Of a stretch of DNA of 21,384 nucleotides, positions 3,746 through 19,937 are shown piece after piece (position 1 is the stretch's first letter; each line of letters begins with the position of its first letter). The stretch is from a virus, in IMG/VR virus record IMGVR_UViG_3300046010_003204, positions 1 to 21,384 of that record; one strand, written 5' to 3'. The position numbers were made by a program, and so were the translations under genes. The notes beneath the pieces were generated by a model that saw nothing but the letters and a program-made list of their open reading frames with translations, made no database searches and had not been told where the DNA came from.

Positions 3746-4711
3746 TTAGACCATTTCTAACAATTTGGATTGGATATCCAATTTGATTTTATCTGATGTA
3801 TAAAAACTGTTCCAAAATGCTGCTGATTCCGATCTTGGTTTAACTTTGTGATCAAAGTAATCTGTAGTAGCTTGTAACACACCATACAAAGTACCTTTTG
3901 AAAATTCTGCACCTTTACCAACATGGTACAAAGTCATCAAATCATTTACTTTATTTACAAGGGAACCATGTTGTTCATCAACTGCAACATCTTTTTTGTA
4001 AAATTGATCTTGGAAAAATTTGCGAACATCTTTTGTTTCAATTCTTGCTGTTGCCAATGTTCTCATATTTTCGATAAATTGGTGTTGTGTATCTGAAATC
4101 AAGCCGAGTTCCAATTTGGCTTTGCTTGCATCAAAATCGGTTGAATGGGTAACTTTGACCATGTTTTTAGATGATTCATTTAGCGCCATAGTCAAGGTGT
4201 TAGAACAAACTGTTCGAATACTAGTAGCCTTTGCGGTTGTGGCCAAAGTTCCATCCAAGCTTGTTGTAAGTAGCAAAAACCCTGAAATTTTATCGCCAGA
4301 AATGACTTCAAAATCTTCACCCAATTTTGCAGTGGCGAAAAATCTTTTGCCACCAAATAGGGAACCTGCTGTTGACATTTTCATATCATGATTTTCCAAC
4401 AAATCATGAAAAAAATCTAAAACTTCTTTTGGTTGAACAATGCGATAATCATTGCTCATAATAGATAATGGAGCATTCGTATCGCTACGGAACAATGCTT
4501 TTTTATCTGGAAACACTGTTGGCATATCATCACCATTATTAAACAAAATTGGTGATTCTTTTGCAAACCAATCCAATCCTGCTGCAACTCTCCATTCATC
4601 CAATGGGGCATCTTCTGCAATTACATTGCCCATACCGTGCCAAATTTTTGTTGTATCACCAGTGTAGGCAAAATTTACACGGTTGTTGCTCATATCTAAA
4701 TTTGCTGCCAT
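3746..4711 (-). CDS. DUF932 / phage-plasmid-like protein
   Basis: A 321-residue protein with the signature of the DUF932 family (phage/plasmid-like protein): an N-terminal WHGMG motif (about residues 24-28), a central SNDYRIVQPKEVLDFF segment (about 87-102), and TTSLDGTLATTAKATSIRTV followed by C-x-N-T-L. The family is common on phages and plasmids, and its biochemical role is not established. The gene has its own consensus promoter (4745-4772), a leader of about 28 bases and a GGAG site, and is separated from the upstream gene by an intrinsic terminator. It is thus an independently controlled unit, probably early (inference). Confidence 0.9.
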   Translation of the reverse strand: MAANLDMSNNRVNFAYTGDTTKIWHGMGNVIAEDAPLDEWRVAAGLDWFAKESPILFNNGDDMPTVFPDKKALFRSDTNAPLSIMSNDYRIVQPKEVLDFFHDLLENHDMKMSTAGSLFGGKRFFATAKLGEDFEVISGDKISGFLLLTTSLDGTLATTAKATSIRTVCSNTLTMALNESSKNMVKVTHSTDFDASKAKLELGLISDTQHQFIENMRTLATARIETKDVRKFFQDQFYKKDVAVDEQHGSLVNKVNDLMTLYHVGKGAEFSKGTLYGVLQATTDYFDHKVKPRSESAAFWNSFYTSDKIKLDIQSKLLEMV

Positions 4712-8183: not shown

Positions 8184-8574
8184 TGTTTTCACAATATGTT
8201 TCTAAATAAAATTTTTCCCATCTTGATATTCTATCCATATCATCAATTGATAAATCAACCGATATTAAATCAATTTTTGTATTTAGGGCAGAATCTAATG
8301 ATTTTAATAAATCAAACAAATTATAACATGAATTTTGTGCCCATATATATTCTGAATATTGGTCTGGATCATATTTTTCTATGTATTCAACTGCATCATG
8401 ATAGGTTTCAATCTTTATATATTTTTTCCACCAAAGGTGTCCAACTGTAAACGTTTTTCCTATATATTGATCCAATATATTTTCACATGATTTTTCCCTA
8501 TGATCTTCAATCTGATTGATATATAGGGTGACAAGTTGTTTTAAATTATAGACAGATACTGTAAAGGTTGTCAT
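8176..8574 (-). CDS. Hypothetical protein (132 aa)
   Basis: A 132-residue acidic protein beginning MTTFTVSVYNLKQLVTLYIN. GKTFTVGHLWWKKYIKIETY lies near residues 44-63 and the remainder is helical. I do not recognise it. The start shares one base with the upstream stop (TAATG). There is no signal peptide or membrane span. Confidence 0.75.
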   Translation of the reverse strand: MTTFTVSVYNLKQLVTLYINQIEDHREKSCENILDQYIGKTFTVGHLWWKKYIKIETYHDAVEYIEKYDPDQYSEYIWAQNSCYNLFDLLKSLDSALNTKIDLISVDLSIDDMDRISRWEKFYLETYCENNG

Positions 8575-8930
8575 TATTTTTTACCCTCTGGTGGAGTAAG
8601 CATTTTATCCAATTCTTGGTTTAATACTTTCATAGTTTTTTGTGCTATATCACTATTCCCAACTGCTTGACCGAATTCGGCAGAAGCTTTTGCCGCACCC
8701 ATTAAATAAATTGTTTGTTTATCTGGAACAAATGCAGTTATCAAAGATAATGCCAATGTAAAATATGCCAAACAATGGTGTTTTTGTTTACAGCATTCTC
8801 CCTCTGATACACCAAATGCAACCCATTCAATAACATATGTTATTGCAGCGGCCCAAGCAAAAAAGTCAAAAACGTTGCCAATATTAGGCAAAACATCTGC
8901 AAAATACAGAAATAATACTACATCATTCAT
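8574..8930 (-). CDS. Conserved phage membrane protein (118 aa)
   Basis: Two likely membrane helices lie around residues 20-40 (FDFFAWAAAITYVIEWVAFG) and 54-68 (LAYFTLALSLITAFV), separated by a Cys/His-rich loop (ECCKQKHHC). A soluble helical tail begins DKQTIYLMGAAKASAEFGQA and ends in a charged region. I recall the segment after the second span (PDKxTxYLxAAxxAxE) from small conserved membrane proteins of large phages, function unknown. It has GGAG 8 bases before the start and its own promoter upstream (8982-9010). Confidence 0.78.
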   Translation of the reverse strand: MNDVVLFLYFADVLPNIGNVFDFFAWAAAITYVIEWVAFGVSEGECCKQKHHCLAYFTLALSLITAFVPDKQTIYLMGAAKASAEFGQAVGNSDIAQKTMKVLNQELDKMLTPPEGKK

Positions 8931-8962
8931 AAAATATTCTCCACTTTTGTTTATAAAATTAC

Positions 8963-9000
8963 TGCGCCAACCATGTGTAATATATTACAGGATTGGCGCA
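8963..9000. repeat. Nested palindromes in the nrdB-8930 intergenic region
   Basis: Outer arms TGCGCCAA (8963-8970) and TTGGCGCA (8993-9000) are perfect 8-base complements. Between them is a perfect 14-base palindrome, TGTAATATATTACA (8976-8989). The centres differ by one base. As RNA it folds into a long stem with a small internal loop. As DNA it covers the spacer and -10 of the promoter at 8982-9010, so it could be an operator, or a processing or weak termination hairpin after nrdB. Confidence 0.7.
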
Positions 9001-9010
9001 GGATTGTCAA
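8982..9010 (-). promoter_or_regulatory. Sigma-70-type promoter downstream of nrdB
   Basis: Minus strand: TTGACA (9010-9005), 17-base spacer, TAATAT (8987-8982) preceded by TG. It is embedded in the nested palindromes at 8963-9000 and would drive the membrane-protein operon starting at 8930. Confidence 0.65.
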
Positions 9011-9017
9011 GAGAAAC

Positions 9018-9995
9018 TTAATTTGCCCATACATCGCCCCAAGTGCCAGATAGGGCACCTTTGGCATAGGCAGTTGACCTATTCTCAAAAAAGTTTGTAT
9101 GTTGTGGAGCCGATACCATTTCATCAACCCATGGTAAAGGATTTTTCTTAACTTTGTAAATTCCTTTTAGACCCATTGAAATCAATCTTCTATCACAAAT
9201 ATATCTAATATATTGTTTTACATCTTCAATAGGTAGCCCATTTGGTGCACCCATGTTGTACGAGATATCTATAAAATCATCTTCTAATGAAACCATTGTT
9301 TCAGCCATTGTATACAATTTTGATTTTAATGAATCATTCCAAATTTTTTTATTTTCTTCAATATGGGTGCGAAATAATTTAATCATTCCTTCAACATGTG
9401 CACCTTCGTCCAAAATTGACCAAGATACAATTTGTCCCATTCCACGCATTAATCCCCTTCTTGGAAAATTTAACAGCATCACAAAAGATGAAAATAATTG
9501 TAACCCTTCGGTAAATGCAGAAAATAAAGCCAAATGCTCTGCAGTAGTGGATTCAGAAGAATTTGCTATATTCTCAATATAATCATGCTTGGCCTTCATT
9601 GCAGGAACATTCATAAATTCATTATAAATTGTTTCCGGCATCCCCAAAGTTTCAATTAAGTGACTATATCCGGCAATATGAATAGATTCTCTTGAAGCAA
9701 ATCCTAGCAACATCATTCTCACTTCTGGTTGAGAAAATATGGGCAAATAATTGTTTACATAACCACCAGCAACATCAATATCACCCTGTGTAAAGAATCT
9801 AAAAATATTGGTGAGAAAATATTTTTCTTCTTTGGTTAAAGAATTTTGCCAATCTTTTACATCTTGAGTCATTTCTACTTCGGTATGAATCCAGTGCATT
9901 TTTTCGTGGTCTAACCACGCATCATAGCACCAATCATATGAAAATGGTTTAAAAAATGGTCTTGAATCAGTTAATTTGTATTTTTTCTTTGACAT
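9018..9995 (-). CDS. nrdB: Ribonucleotide reductase class I beta subunit
   Basis: NrdB houses the diiron-tyrosyl radical cofactor that activates NrdA for reduction of ribonucleotides to deoxyribonucleotides. Six metal ligands can be placed by spacing against E. coli NrdB: D72, E103, H106 (RESIH), E163 (FTEGLQ), E197 and H200 (DEGAH). The radical tyrosine is present as Y110, four residues after H106. Length is 325 aa against 376 in E. coli. The C-terminus (GTWGDVWAN) should be the tail that docks on NrdA. The gene starts 13 bases after the nrdA stop, so both subunits are probably co-transcribed. There is no frameshift or intron, and no clear GGAG site before the ATG at 9995. Confidence 0.95.
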   Translation of the reverse strand: MSKKKYKLTDSRPFFKPFSYDWCYDAWLDHEKMHWIHTEVEMTQDVKDWQNSLTKEEKYFLTNIFRFFTQGDIDVAGGYVNNYLPIFSQPEVRMMLLGFASRESIHIAGYSHLIETLGMPETIYNEFMNVPAMKAKHDYIENIANSSESTTAEHLALFSAFTEGLQLFSSFVMLLNFPRRGLMRGMGQIVSWSILDEGAHVEGMIKLFRTHIEENKKIWNDSLKSKLYTMAETMVSLEDDFIDISYNMGAPNGLPIEDVKQYIRYICDRRLISMGLKGIYKVKKNPLPWVDEMVSAPQHTNFFENRSTAYAKGALSGTWGDVWAN

Positions 9996-14001: not shown

Positions 14002-14102
14002 TATATAACACTCATATTAAAATATAATAAATAATTGTGTATCGCGGAATTGGCGTTCCCATACACTCTAAACATTCTTATTGACAATTACAAGGAATCA
14101 TC
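14002..14102. other. Divergent intergenic region, primase / homing endonuclease
   Basis: A 101-base AT-rich gap between divergent starts. On the plus side TTGACA (14081-14086) lies too close to the endonuclease ATG to be its -35. GGAAT (14046-14050) and ATTCC-like bases around GGCGTTCC can form only a weak hairpin. No convincing promoter for either gene was found. Confidence 0.4.
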
Positions 14103-14951
14103 ATGTCCAGCGAAAATATTTATACCATATACACATTAACAAATATATTAAACCAAAAAATTTATATTGGATTCACATCCAATATACATAAAAGATTGAT
14201 AGACCACAAGTCTGCATCTAAATCAAGCAACTATAAATTATATCGTGCCATTCGAAAACATGGATGGGATAATTTCACATCGGAAATCTTATATCAATCC
14301 AAAGATCGTGTTCACACATTAACAATAATGGAGCCATATTTTATATCAGAATATGATTCATATCACAATGGGTATAACTCCACGCTAGGCGGAGAAGGAA
14401 CATTTGGGCGCAGGTGGAAAATACCCTATCATCTAGTTAAACGTGGAGAAACGCATCATAACTATGGGAAACCCCTATCAGAAGAAACAAAGAAAAAAAT
14501 ATCTATCGGCAAATTGGGCGAAAAAAATCCAATGTATGGTAAACATATATCGGACGAGGCAAAAATTAAAATTGCGGAAAAATCAGCAAAATCATTTATA
14601 ATAATTTTTCCCGACAACACAATATCAAAGATAAAAAATCTAAATCGATTTTGCGTCCAACATAATTTAGATGCTGCTAACATGATTAATGTAGCCAATG
14701 GAACTGCTGAATCATATCATGGATATAGATGTTTTTATGCAGACTCATACATTGGGCACTCAATCAACACATACGAATTTACAAATAATACTGGCGAGAT
14801 ATTTATAACAAAAAATATGGCGTATTTTTGTATTCAGCATTCATTATCTGTACCAAACATAAAACAAGTATTAAAAGGCACACATAAATCCTATAAAGGG
14901 TGGATATGTAAATTTGTTGACACAATATTTGTTCATAGTACTTTTGAGTAA
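14103..14951 (+). CDS. Free-standing GIY-YIG homing endonuclease
   Basis: A 282-residue homing endonuclease, the only plus-strand gene. The N-terminal GIY-YIG nuclease domain (residues 5-100) shows the paired motif as YTIYTLTN and KIYIGFTS, a conserved Arg in KRLIDH, and MEPYFISEYDSYHNGYNSTLGG near residues 76-97. Two NUMOD3 DNA-binding motifs follow (HHNYGKPLSEETKKKIS, KNPMYGKHISDEAKIKI, about 117-155). Two NUMOD1/IENR-like repeats of about 50 residues come last, each with a FC-Q-H helix and a final G-Y/W-x-C. It resembles T4 Seg enzymes and SPO1-type nucleases. It probably cuts a related phage at this locus to spread itself (inference). AAGGA precedes the ATG. Confidence 0.93.
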   Translation: MSSENIYTIYTLTNILNQKIYIGFTSNIHKRLIDHKSASKSSNYKLYRAIRKHGWDNFTSEILYQSKDRVHTLTIMEPYFISEYDSYHNGYNSTLGGEGTFGRRWKIPYHLVKRGETHHNYGKPLSEETKKKISIGKLGEKNPMYGKHISDEAKIKIAEKSAKSFIIIFPDNTISKIKNLNRFCVQHNLDAANMINVANGTAESYHGYRCFYADSYIGHSINTYEFTNNTGEIFITKNMAYFCIQHSLSVPNIKQVLKGTHKSYKGWICKFVDTIFVHSTFE

Positions 14952-19166: not shown

Positions 19167-19937
19167 TTATGCAGTGGTTCTTTGCGTCAGTGCTGTTGCA
19201 ACAGCAGCAGAAATTGATTTATCTGGAGTACCATTTGTTCCAGTTGCATCAGCAATTGTTCCAGTAATGGTCTGTGTTTGAATGCCCAAAGATTTTCCGG
19301 CTACCGGAGCAGTGAATTCAAAAGTTGCGCCAGTTTTAGATGAATCCAATTGTGCAAAAGTTGCCACAATATTTACTGAATCTGTAAAATTTCTTACATT
19401 CAATGTTGCACCGGCAGTAATTGCAACAGGTTCATTGAAATCAACAATTACAGAAAATGTTGCAGATGCTGCAATAGTTCCAGTTCCTTTTGTTTTCCAT
19501 CTAACATTAGTAATTGTTGCACCAGCCAACAAATCATTTAGTCCACCAGAAATTGCAACCAATAATTCTGGTTCACCAGACACTTTAATGCCATATTTTC
19601 CAGTTACAATACTTGTACCAGTATATGGTGAAACTAATACTAAATTTGTTGCATCTGTAATTGATCTAATTCTACCAACAATTGCGCCAGTAGTAGAAAT
19701 CAAATAATTGCCAACTTTTGTTTCTGTTAAAAAATTTGCACCACTTGCACCAGTAACAGCAACCGCACCATTTGACACAGAAATGGTTCCAGTACCAACA
19801 ACATTAAGTTTTGGGTTAAGATATTCCCAACCACGATTTGATGCATATACATCTTCTTTTCTATATGTACCAAATTCACTATTTGATAAATATTTTGGTT
19901 TTGCCTCATTGGTAGAGGATTTTCCCCAAAGACTCAT
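19167..19937 (-). CDS. Virion structural protein, MSLWGK family (256 aa)
   Basis: Begins MSLWGKSSTNEAKPKYLSNS, the conserved N-terminus I recall for abundant structural proteins of T4-like marine phages. The rest is rich in Thr, Ala, Gly and Val and forms predicted beta strands: GTGTISVSNGAVAVTGASGA near residue 50, then a segment resembling an Ig-like or cadherin-like domain (about 150-225, KGTGTIAASATFSVIVDFNE onward). Base composition is less AT-rich than the neighbours, reflecting Ala/Gly/Thr codons. It has AGGAG 7 bases before the ATG and an exact T4-type late promoter octamer at 19969-19976, and is followed by a strong terminator, so it forms its own late transcription unit, consistent with high expression. 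Confidence 0.85.
   Translation of the reverse strand: MSLWGKSSTNEAKPKYLSNSEFGTYRKEDVYASNRGWEYLNPKLNVVGTGTISVSNGAVAVTGASGANFLTETKVGNYLISTTGAIVGRIRSITDATNLVLVSPYTGTSIVTGKYGIKVSGEPELLVAISGGLNDLLAGATITNVRWKTKGTGTIAASATFSVIVDFNEPVAITAGATLNVRNFTDSVNIVATFAQLDSSKTGATFEFTAPVAGKSLGIQTQTITGTIADATGTNGTPDKSISAAVATALTQRTTA

Follow-up and report, generated by a model that had tools for sequence, protein, structure and literature searches.

A sigma-70 promoter with its -10 hexamer and predicted start site inside an inverted repeat leads from the ribonucleotide reductase (RNR) module to the next run of genes in the window, by which we mean the whole 21,384-base virus record analyzed here, and homology between two relatives switches sharply at this element. 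The promoter early stem-loops (PeSLs) of T4 phage are early promoters with an overlapping stem-loop. We read the element as a PeSL-like composite promoter-terminator of an uncultivated T4-type phage, one that would insulate transcription units and tolerate module exchange, and we give this reading a probability of about 0.68. The T4 PeSL class is absent from an earlier account of the same DNA made without database searches (the sequence-only reading); in our analysis it fits best.

Architecture of the promoter and stem-loop

The promoter and hairpin are situated on the minus strand, in the 87-bp gap that leads from nrdB to a 118-aa gene. The features of the locus are as follows.

9018-9995, minus strand: nrdB (Ribonuc_red_sm, 1.6e-72), ending 7 nt before the -35
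9011-9012, no strand: boundary between homologous (~98%) and non-homologous sequence, window against G001 (a 76-kb relative), from alignment
9005-9010, minus strand: -35 hexamer TTGACA, 6/6 consensus, just outside the 8-bp repeat
8999-9006, minus strand: first copy of the direct repeat CAATCCTG; the two copies lie 11 bp apart across the spacer
8988-8995, minus strand: second copy of CAATCCTG, 11 bp from the first
8988-9004, minus strand: 17-nt spacer ATCCTGCGCCAATCCTG, containing the hairpin 5' arm
8982-8987, minus strand: -10 hexamer TAATAT, 4/6 consensus, within the inner palindrome
8976-8989, no strand: perfect 14-bp palindrome TGTAATATATTACA, comprising the inner stem and the -10, centre 8982.5
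8974-8976, minus strand: predicted transcription start, ~7 nt past the -10, placed by sigma-70 spacing, in the hairpin loop
8962-9001, minus strand: imperfect inverted repeat/stem-loop of 40 nt, -20.6 kcal/mol as RNA
9001-8991 and 8972-8962, minus strand: outer arms of the stem-loop, 11 pairs including one G.U
8954-8961, minus strand: weak terminator tail TAATTTTA behind the 3' arm, with T at 5 of 8 positions
8939-8944, minus strand: GTGGAG, outside the hairpin, probably the ribosome-binding site of the 118-aa gene
8574-8930, minus strand: the 118-aa gene behind the promoter, phrog_3878, function unknown, N-terminal half hydrophobic

The promoter, TTGACA-17-TAATAT, scores 10/12 and is of sigma-70 (early) type as judged by its sequence; the 5' arm of the hairpin lies in its -35/-10 spacer and the 3' arm beyond the predicted start site. 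The RNA fold of the 40-mer consists of an 11-pair outer stem and a 5-pair inner stem (z = -5.6). The sequence-only reading had placed nested palindromes on a promoter that follows nrdB, with the -35 just outside and the -10 within them, and this description is borne out by the hexamer positions (9010-9005 and 8987-8982, minus strand). The palindrome centres are indeed one base apart, the 8-bp arms TGCGCCAA (8963-8970) and TTGGCGCA (8993-9000) being centred at 8981.5 and the inner palindrome at 8982.5. The inverted repeat reaches further than was first noted, with 15-nt arms at 8962-8976 and 8987-9001 that are 87% complementary. The description of the hairpin as lacking a T-tract was too strong, given the five T of TAATTTTA; this tail passes the terminator scanner's test for tails, and the 18-nt loop is the sole bar to the hairpin being listed. 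Such a tail is only suggestive of termination by the stem-loop. Scanned against Rfam and for tRNAs, the window gave no match.

The element stands between nrdB, the last gene of the window's RNR module, and the 118-aa gene, the first of a same-strand gene run that extends to ~690 and is common to G001, the relative in which the RNR module is replaced. The proposal that a hairpin sets nrdB apart from the transcription unit behind it is supported as an idea.

Relatives and the switch of homology at the -35

Searches of viral_contigs with an exact 19-base pattern and with a relaxed pattern returned, beyond the window, matches only to G001 and to G002 (13 kb), the latter identical to the window over the 91-bp query. 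A T4-type major capsid gene (Gp23, 1.7e-127) is present in G001. The Portal_T4 profile gave no match in the G001 fragment, and no capsid gene was found within the window's 21 kb. The putative T4-type assignment of the phage rests on Gp23 of G001, a ~98% relative.

Between 9011 and 690 the window and G001 share 97.7% identity, and the figure exceeds 99% in 19174-14951 and 13833-13021. Directly above 9011 there is no homology between the two, forced alignment giving 36-46% identity per 50-nt bin. The RNR module of G001 is a different one: its NrdB is 24% identical, its NrdA is 25-35% identical and in two fragments, and the gene order is reversed. The switch of homology in this single genome pair coincides with the promoter -35. 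The nrd stop codon lies 7 nt from the -35 in the window and 3 nt in G001, so that the promoter junction is also a gene-end junction.

Within 9011-8908 the window and G001 differ at 2 positions in 104 bp, through a stem substitution and a deletion in a T stretch, against 25 differences in the next 378 bp; the element thus forms an island of identity between the two genomes, although the contrast is not significant (Fisher p 0.09). Conservation of pairing in relatives, to which the sequence-only reading had tied its proposal, can be followed in two alleles only: the stem scores -18.5 in G001, with one pair removed by the substitution. A candidate upstream peptide, in a short frame that begins with an ATG at 8974 (ORF 8951-9127), was rejected, as a one-base deletion in G001 shifts its frame.

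Relatives of nrdB were found at 31 loci, of which 30 were read, one (L033) being omitted because the contig end truncates its match short of the end of the gene. The element is present in one of these 30 (L003, the G002 contig) and absent in 29, with L014-L019 and L021 near-identical and not independent. A search for relatives of the 118-aa gene gave none among the phages, and in viral_contigs only those of G001 and G002.

Several other features of these two genomes were recorded. The nrdA of G001 (L035:778-3918) is in two frames that carry N- and C-terminal intein parts, with Intein_splicing matches of 3.5e-5 (below the cut-off) and 9.6e-9 (just below), and between them is a separate 336-aa ORF with no Pfam match. 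The whole resembles a split intein with an endonuclease-type gene between its parts, the ORF being a putative HNH protein on our reading of its sequence. A GIY-YIG/NUMOD3 homing endonuclease gene (14103-14951) is present in the window and missing at the matching place in G001; its leader (window 14009-14110), which contains GTATCGCGGAATTGG(T)CGTTCCCATACA, recurs as the leader of a different NUMOD3 gene elsewhere in G001 (L047:4265-4375). A second block that is unaligned with G001, 19174-19932, is flanked by more than 94% identity and spans most of a gene at 19167-19937 with no Pfam match.

Further copies and the geometry of T4 promoters

The sequence-only reading had proposed a search for the arms or for repressor sites elsewhere, and this was negative. 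There is no second copy of the site by sequence homology in the window or in the 76-kb G001, both of which are fragments; the only other match in G001 is 20 nt long and inside a reading frame. The inner palindrome, allowing 1-3 mismatches, gave no matches beyond chance in the window, and the arms are not paired elsewhere there. Searches with the element in phages and plasmids gave no match that spanned the greater part of the query, and genome_contigs gave none for one relaxed pattern. One further element of like geometry was found in these fragmentary records, at G001:64952, where a 14-pair stem, a T run and the hexamers TTGACA/TAGAAT are arranged in the same way. We rejected it as a twin of the element, since no long gene starts directly behind it; it may be a terminator that carries a promoter by chance.

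Three G001 promoters within 1.4 kb (70947, 72050 and 72344) are identical over TTGACAATCCATTTTATACAATTATAATAA, each before a different leader, and have TTGACAATCC in common with the element. In the jumbo Escherichia phage 121Q (KM507819), at ~92-154 kb, many TTGACA-TATAAT promoters have the spacer sequence AGTACT before GTATAAT, a possible phage-specific promoter mark.

The geometry of promoter and hairpin was scanned in pieces of T4, six other named phages, six contigs, the window and G001, over 844 promoters at first and 840 with wider margins. A hairpin over the -10 at offset 0 was found in 8 of the 840, against a mean of 1.2 across 20 control offsets. T4 accounts for five of these among its 73 scanned promoters (control mean 0.25); without T4 there remain 3 of 767 (the window, G001:64952 and V45v66), against a control mean of 0.95, and the V45v66 case is weak (-14.7). 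The match is between the window phage and T4, and the other T4-type phages that were scanned are without the architecture as a class. In T4 the five promoters precede alc, alt.-3, dmd, ipII (in the ipII-ipIII gap) and mobD.2. Their spacers are 17 nt, as in the element; the 5' arm begins 0-4 nt past the -35 (3 in the window), the 3' arm stops 13-23 nt past the -10 (20 in the window), and the hairpin energies are -19.1 to -20.8 kcal/mol, compared with -20.6 in the window.

PeSLs of T4 phages were reportedly the subject of work by Arbiol et al. in 2010, and the title of a 2014 paper by Comeau et al. calls them composite conserved promoter-terminator motifs. Repoila et al. reportedly described, in 1994, early promoter regions of ~70 bp with overlapping inverted repeats near internal-protein genes, with which our T4 match between ipII and ipIII agrees. 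The element resembles a T4 PeSL in that an inverted repeat overlaps an early-type promoter within an intergenic gap, at a position where the gene content of relatives differs, and in that its geometry is within the range of the five T4 cases. It differs in that no sequence similarity was noticed beyond the promoter, the -35 is TTGACA in the element and TTTACA in T4, and the U tail of the element is better (5 T in 8, against 0-4 in the five T4 cases). In addition, a ribosome-binding motif lies in the 3' arm in three of the five T4 cases and not in the element, and the element is single copy by homology in the 21-kb and 76-kb fragments. PeSLs of T4 are described as dense, and the class is characterized by multiple mutually homologous copies per genome, located in plastic regions. 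They are also described as mediating gene shuffling between T4-like phages (PMC4503421).

A PeSL-like motif has also been reported in the haloarchaeal virus HGTV-1, where a TATA-box-like region with an inverted repeat stands before ORFs and a role in transcription and shuffling is suggested, as we do for the element (PMC3950731). That motif differs in having an archaeal promoter and in standing before most ORFs of one genome half, whereas a single element is found here.

Alternative explanations

The main rival is a repressor operator, in which a phage or host regulator, bound as a dimer or tetramer, would occupy the repeat near -7 and block RNA polymerase. The dyad symmetry over the -10 and spacer, the direct repeat with its 11-bp phase and the presence of the hairpin on only one of the window's TTGACA promoters are all features that an operator could have. 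However, repeated sites were not found in the window, in G001 or, with one relaxed pattern, in genome_contigs; the 10 window proteins scanned against PHROGs included no linked regulator; and one symmetric position is changed in G001. Nothing that we found asks for an operator, and we regard one as unlikely.

The hairpin might instead be a plain weak intrinsic terminator of the RNR transcript, or serve to process its 3' end, and overlap the promoter incidentally in the 87-bp gap; the main difference from the PeSL-like reading is whether the overlap is incidental or selected. A terminator followed by a promoter on the same strand does occur in these genomes, at window 4811-4792 and then 4772, and in the same order at G001:26303 and then 26343. 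G001:64952 combines a stem, a T run and a promoter with no long gene directly behind. These abutting pairs (window 4811-4772; G001 26303-26343) share with the element the packing of stop and start on one strand, but their hairpin precedes the promoter, whereas the element's promoter is inside its hairpin. The 18-nt loop and the tail interrupted by A speak against a plain terminator, as do the strong promoter hexamers followed in order by a ribosome-binding site and a gene, and this explanation seems to us quite improbable. The window pair itself (4811-4745) consists of a terminator-like hairpin and T run and then a perfect TTGACA-16-TATAAT promoter, behind which lies a DUF932-type gene (3746-4711).

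Chance overlap without function was examined by shuffling. The palindromes and the hairpin energy are each unremarkable and inside the shuffle range. The window has 7 palindromes of at least 14 bp, against a shuffle mean of 3.4; a loose rule for nested palindromes returned 6 of 200 shuffles, the window count being two nested cases. The hairpin is the strongest 40-mer in the window on both strands, and a 40-mer hairpin at least as strong was found at the same step in 7 of 60 shuffles. The longest palindrome of the window, a perfect 18-bp CAATAACATATGTTATTG at 8828-8845, is within the 118-aa gene. What stands out is the combination of promoter and hairpin. The 97.6 kb of window and G001 contain 52 strict TTGACA promoters with a -10 of at least 4/6, an enrichment over the shuffles, whose mean is 15.5 and maximum 26. 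Two of the 52 have a stem score of at least 17 over the -10, namely window 9010 and G001:64952. One such promoter-hairpin appeared in 2 of 200 shuffles of the 97.6 kb and two appeared in none of the 200. The G001 allele of the element, with its lost stem pair, scores 14 and is therefore not among the two counted. The loss of this pair is what chance would allow, but the rarity of the joint arrangement and its recurrence in T4 leave chance very improbable.

The sequence-only reading had also suggested an NrdR-type site, for which the AT-rich palindrome over the -10, behind nrdB, would speak. NrdR boxes end in ACA..TGT, and the TGT..ACA flanks of the element are the reverse of this. The element has a single 14-bp palindrome, downstream of nrdB and before a non-RNR gene, with no second one nearby within 3 mismatches; it is without the two 16-bp boxes, 12-27 bp apart, that occur as pairs upstream of RNR operons (PMC12051234; PMC4409342), and regulation of this type is scarcely credible here.

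Proposed function and implications

For termination, start site and recombination activity we infer the following scheme for the PeSL-like element. RNA from the element's own promoter would start in the loop; such a transcript would be without the 5' arm and so could not form the hairpin. Transcripts from nrdB would have both arms, and in these the hairpin would fold ahead of a U-rich stretch, so that they may be stopped or processed there at least in part, while the promoter would start the next transcription unit. The element would in this way insulate the RNR unit from the next. Because it would be a self-contained sign for start and stop, recombinational exchange of the neighboring module would be tolerated. 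This reading is weakened by the tail broken by an A, by the size of the loop, by the G001 substitution that leaves a base unpaired, by the failure to find homologous copies in the window or G001, and by the coincidence of the promoter with a gene end.

The PeSL-type arrangement is already known from T4, and the element is a new example of a known device. Promoter stem-loops are proposed joints for the block exchange of non-core genes in T4-type phages. The present case adds an uncultivated lineage with the T4 geometry and without T4-like sequence at the element, and sets the element beside a pair of near-identical genomes whose adjacent modules differ; the operator idea is not needed to explain its palindromes. 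We suggest, tentatively, that a promoter within a hairpin serves as a one-way RNA gate and a portable joint, with a fixed geometry but unrelated sequence in distant T4-type phages, caught here at the exact edge of a swapped RNR module. Both the logic of insulation, with the start in the loop, and the idea of a joint are now testable by a small reporter.
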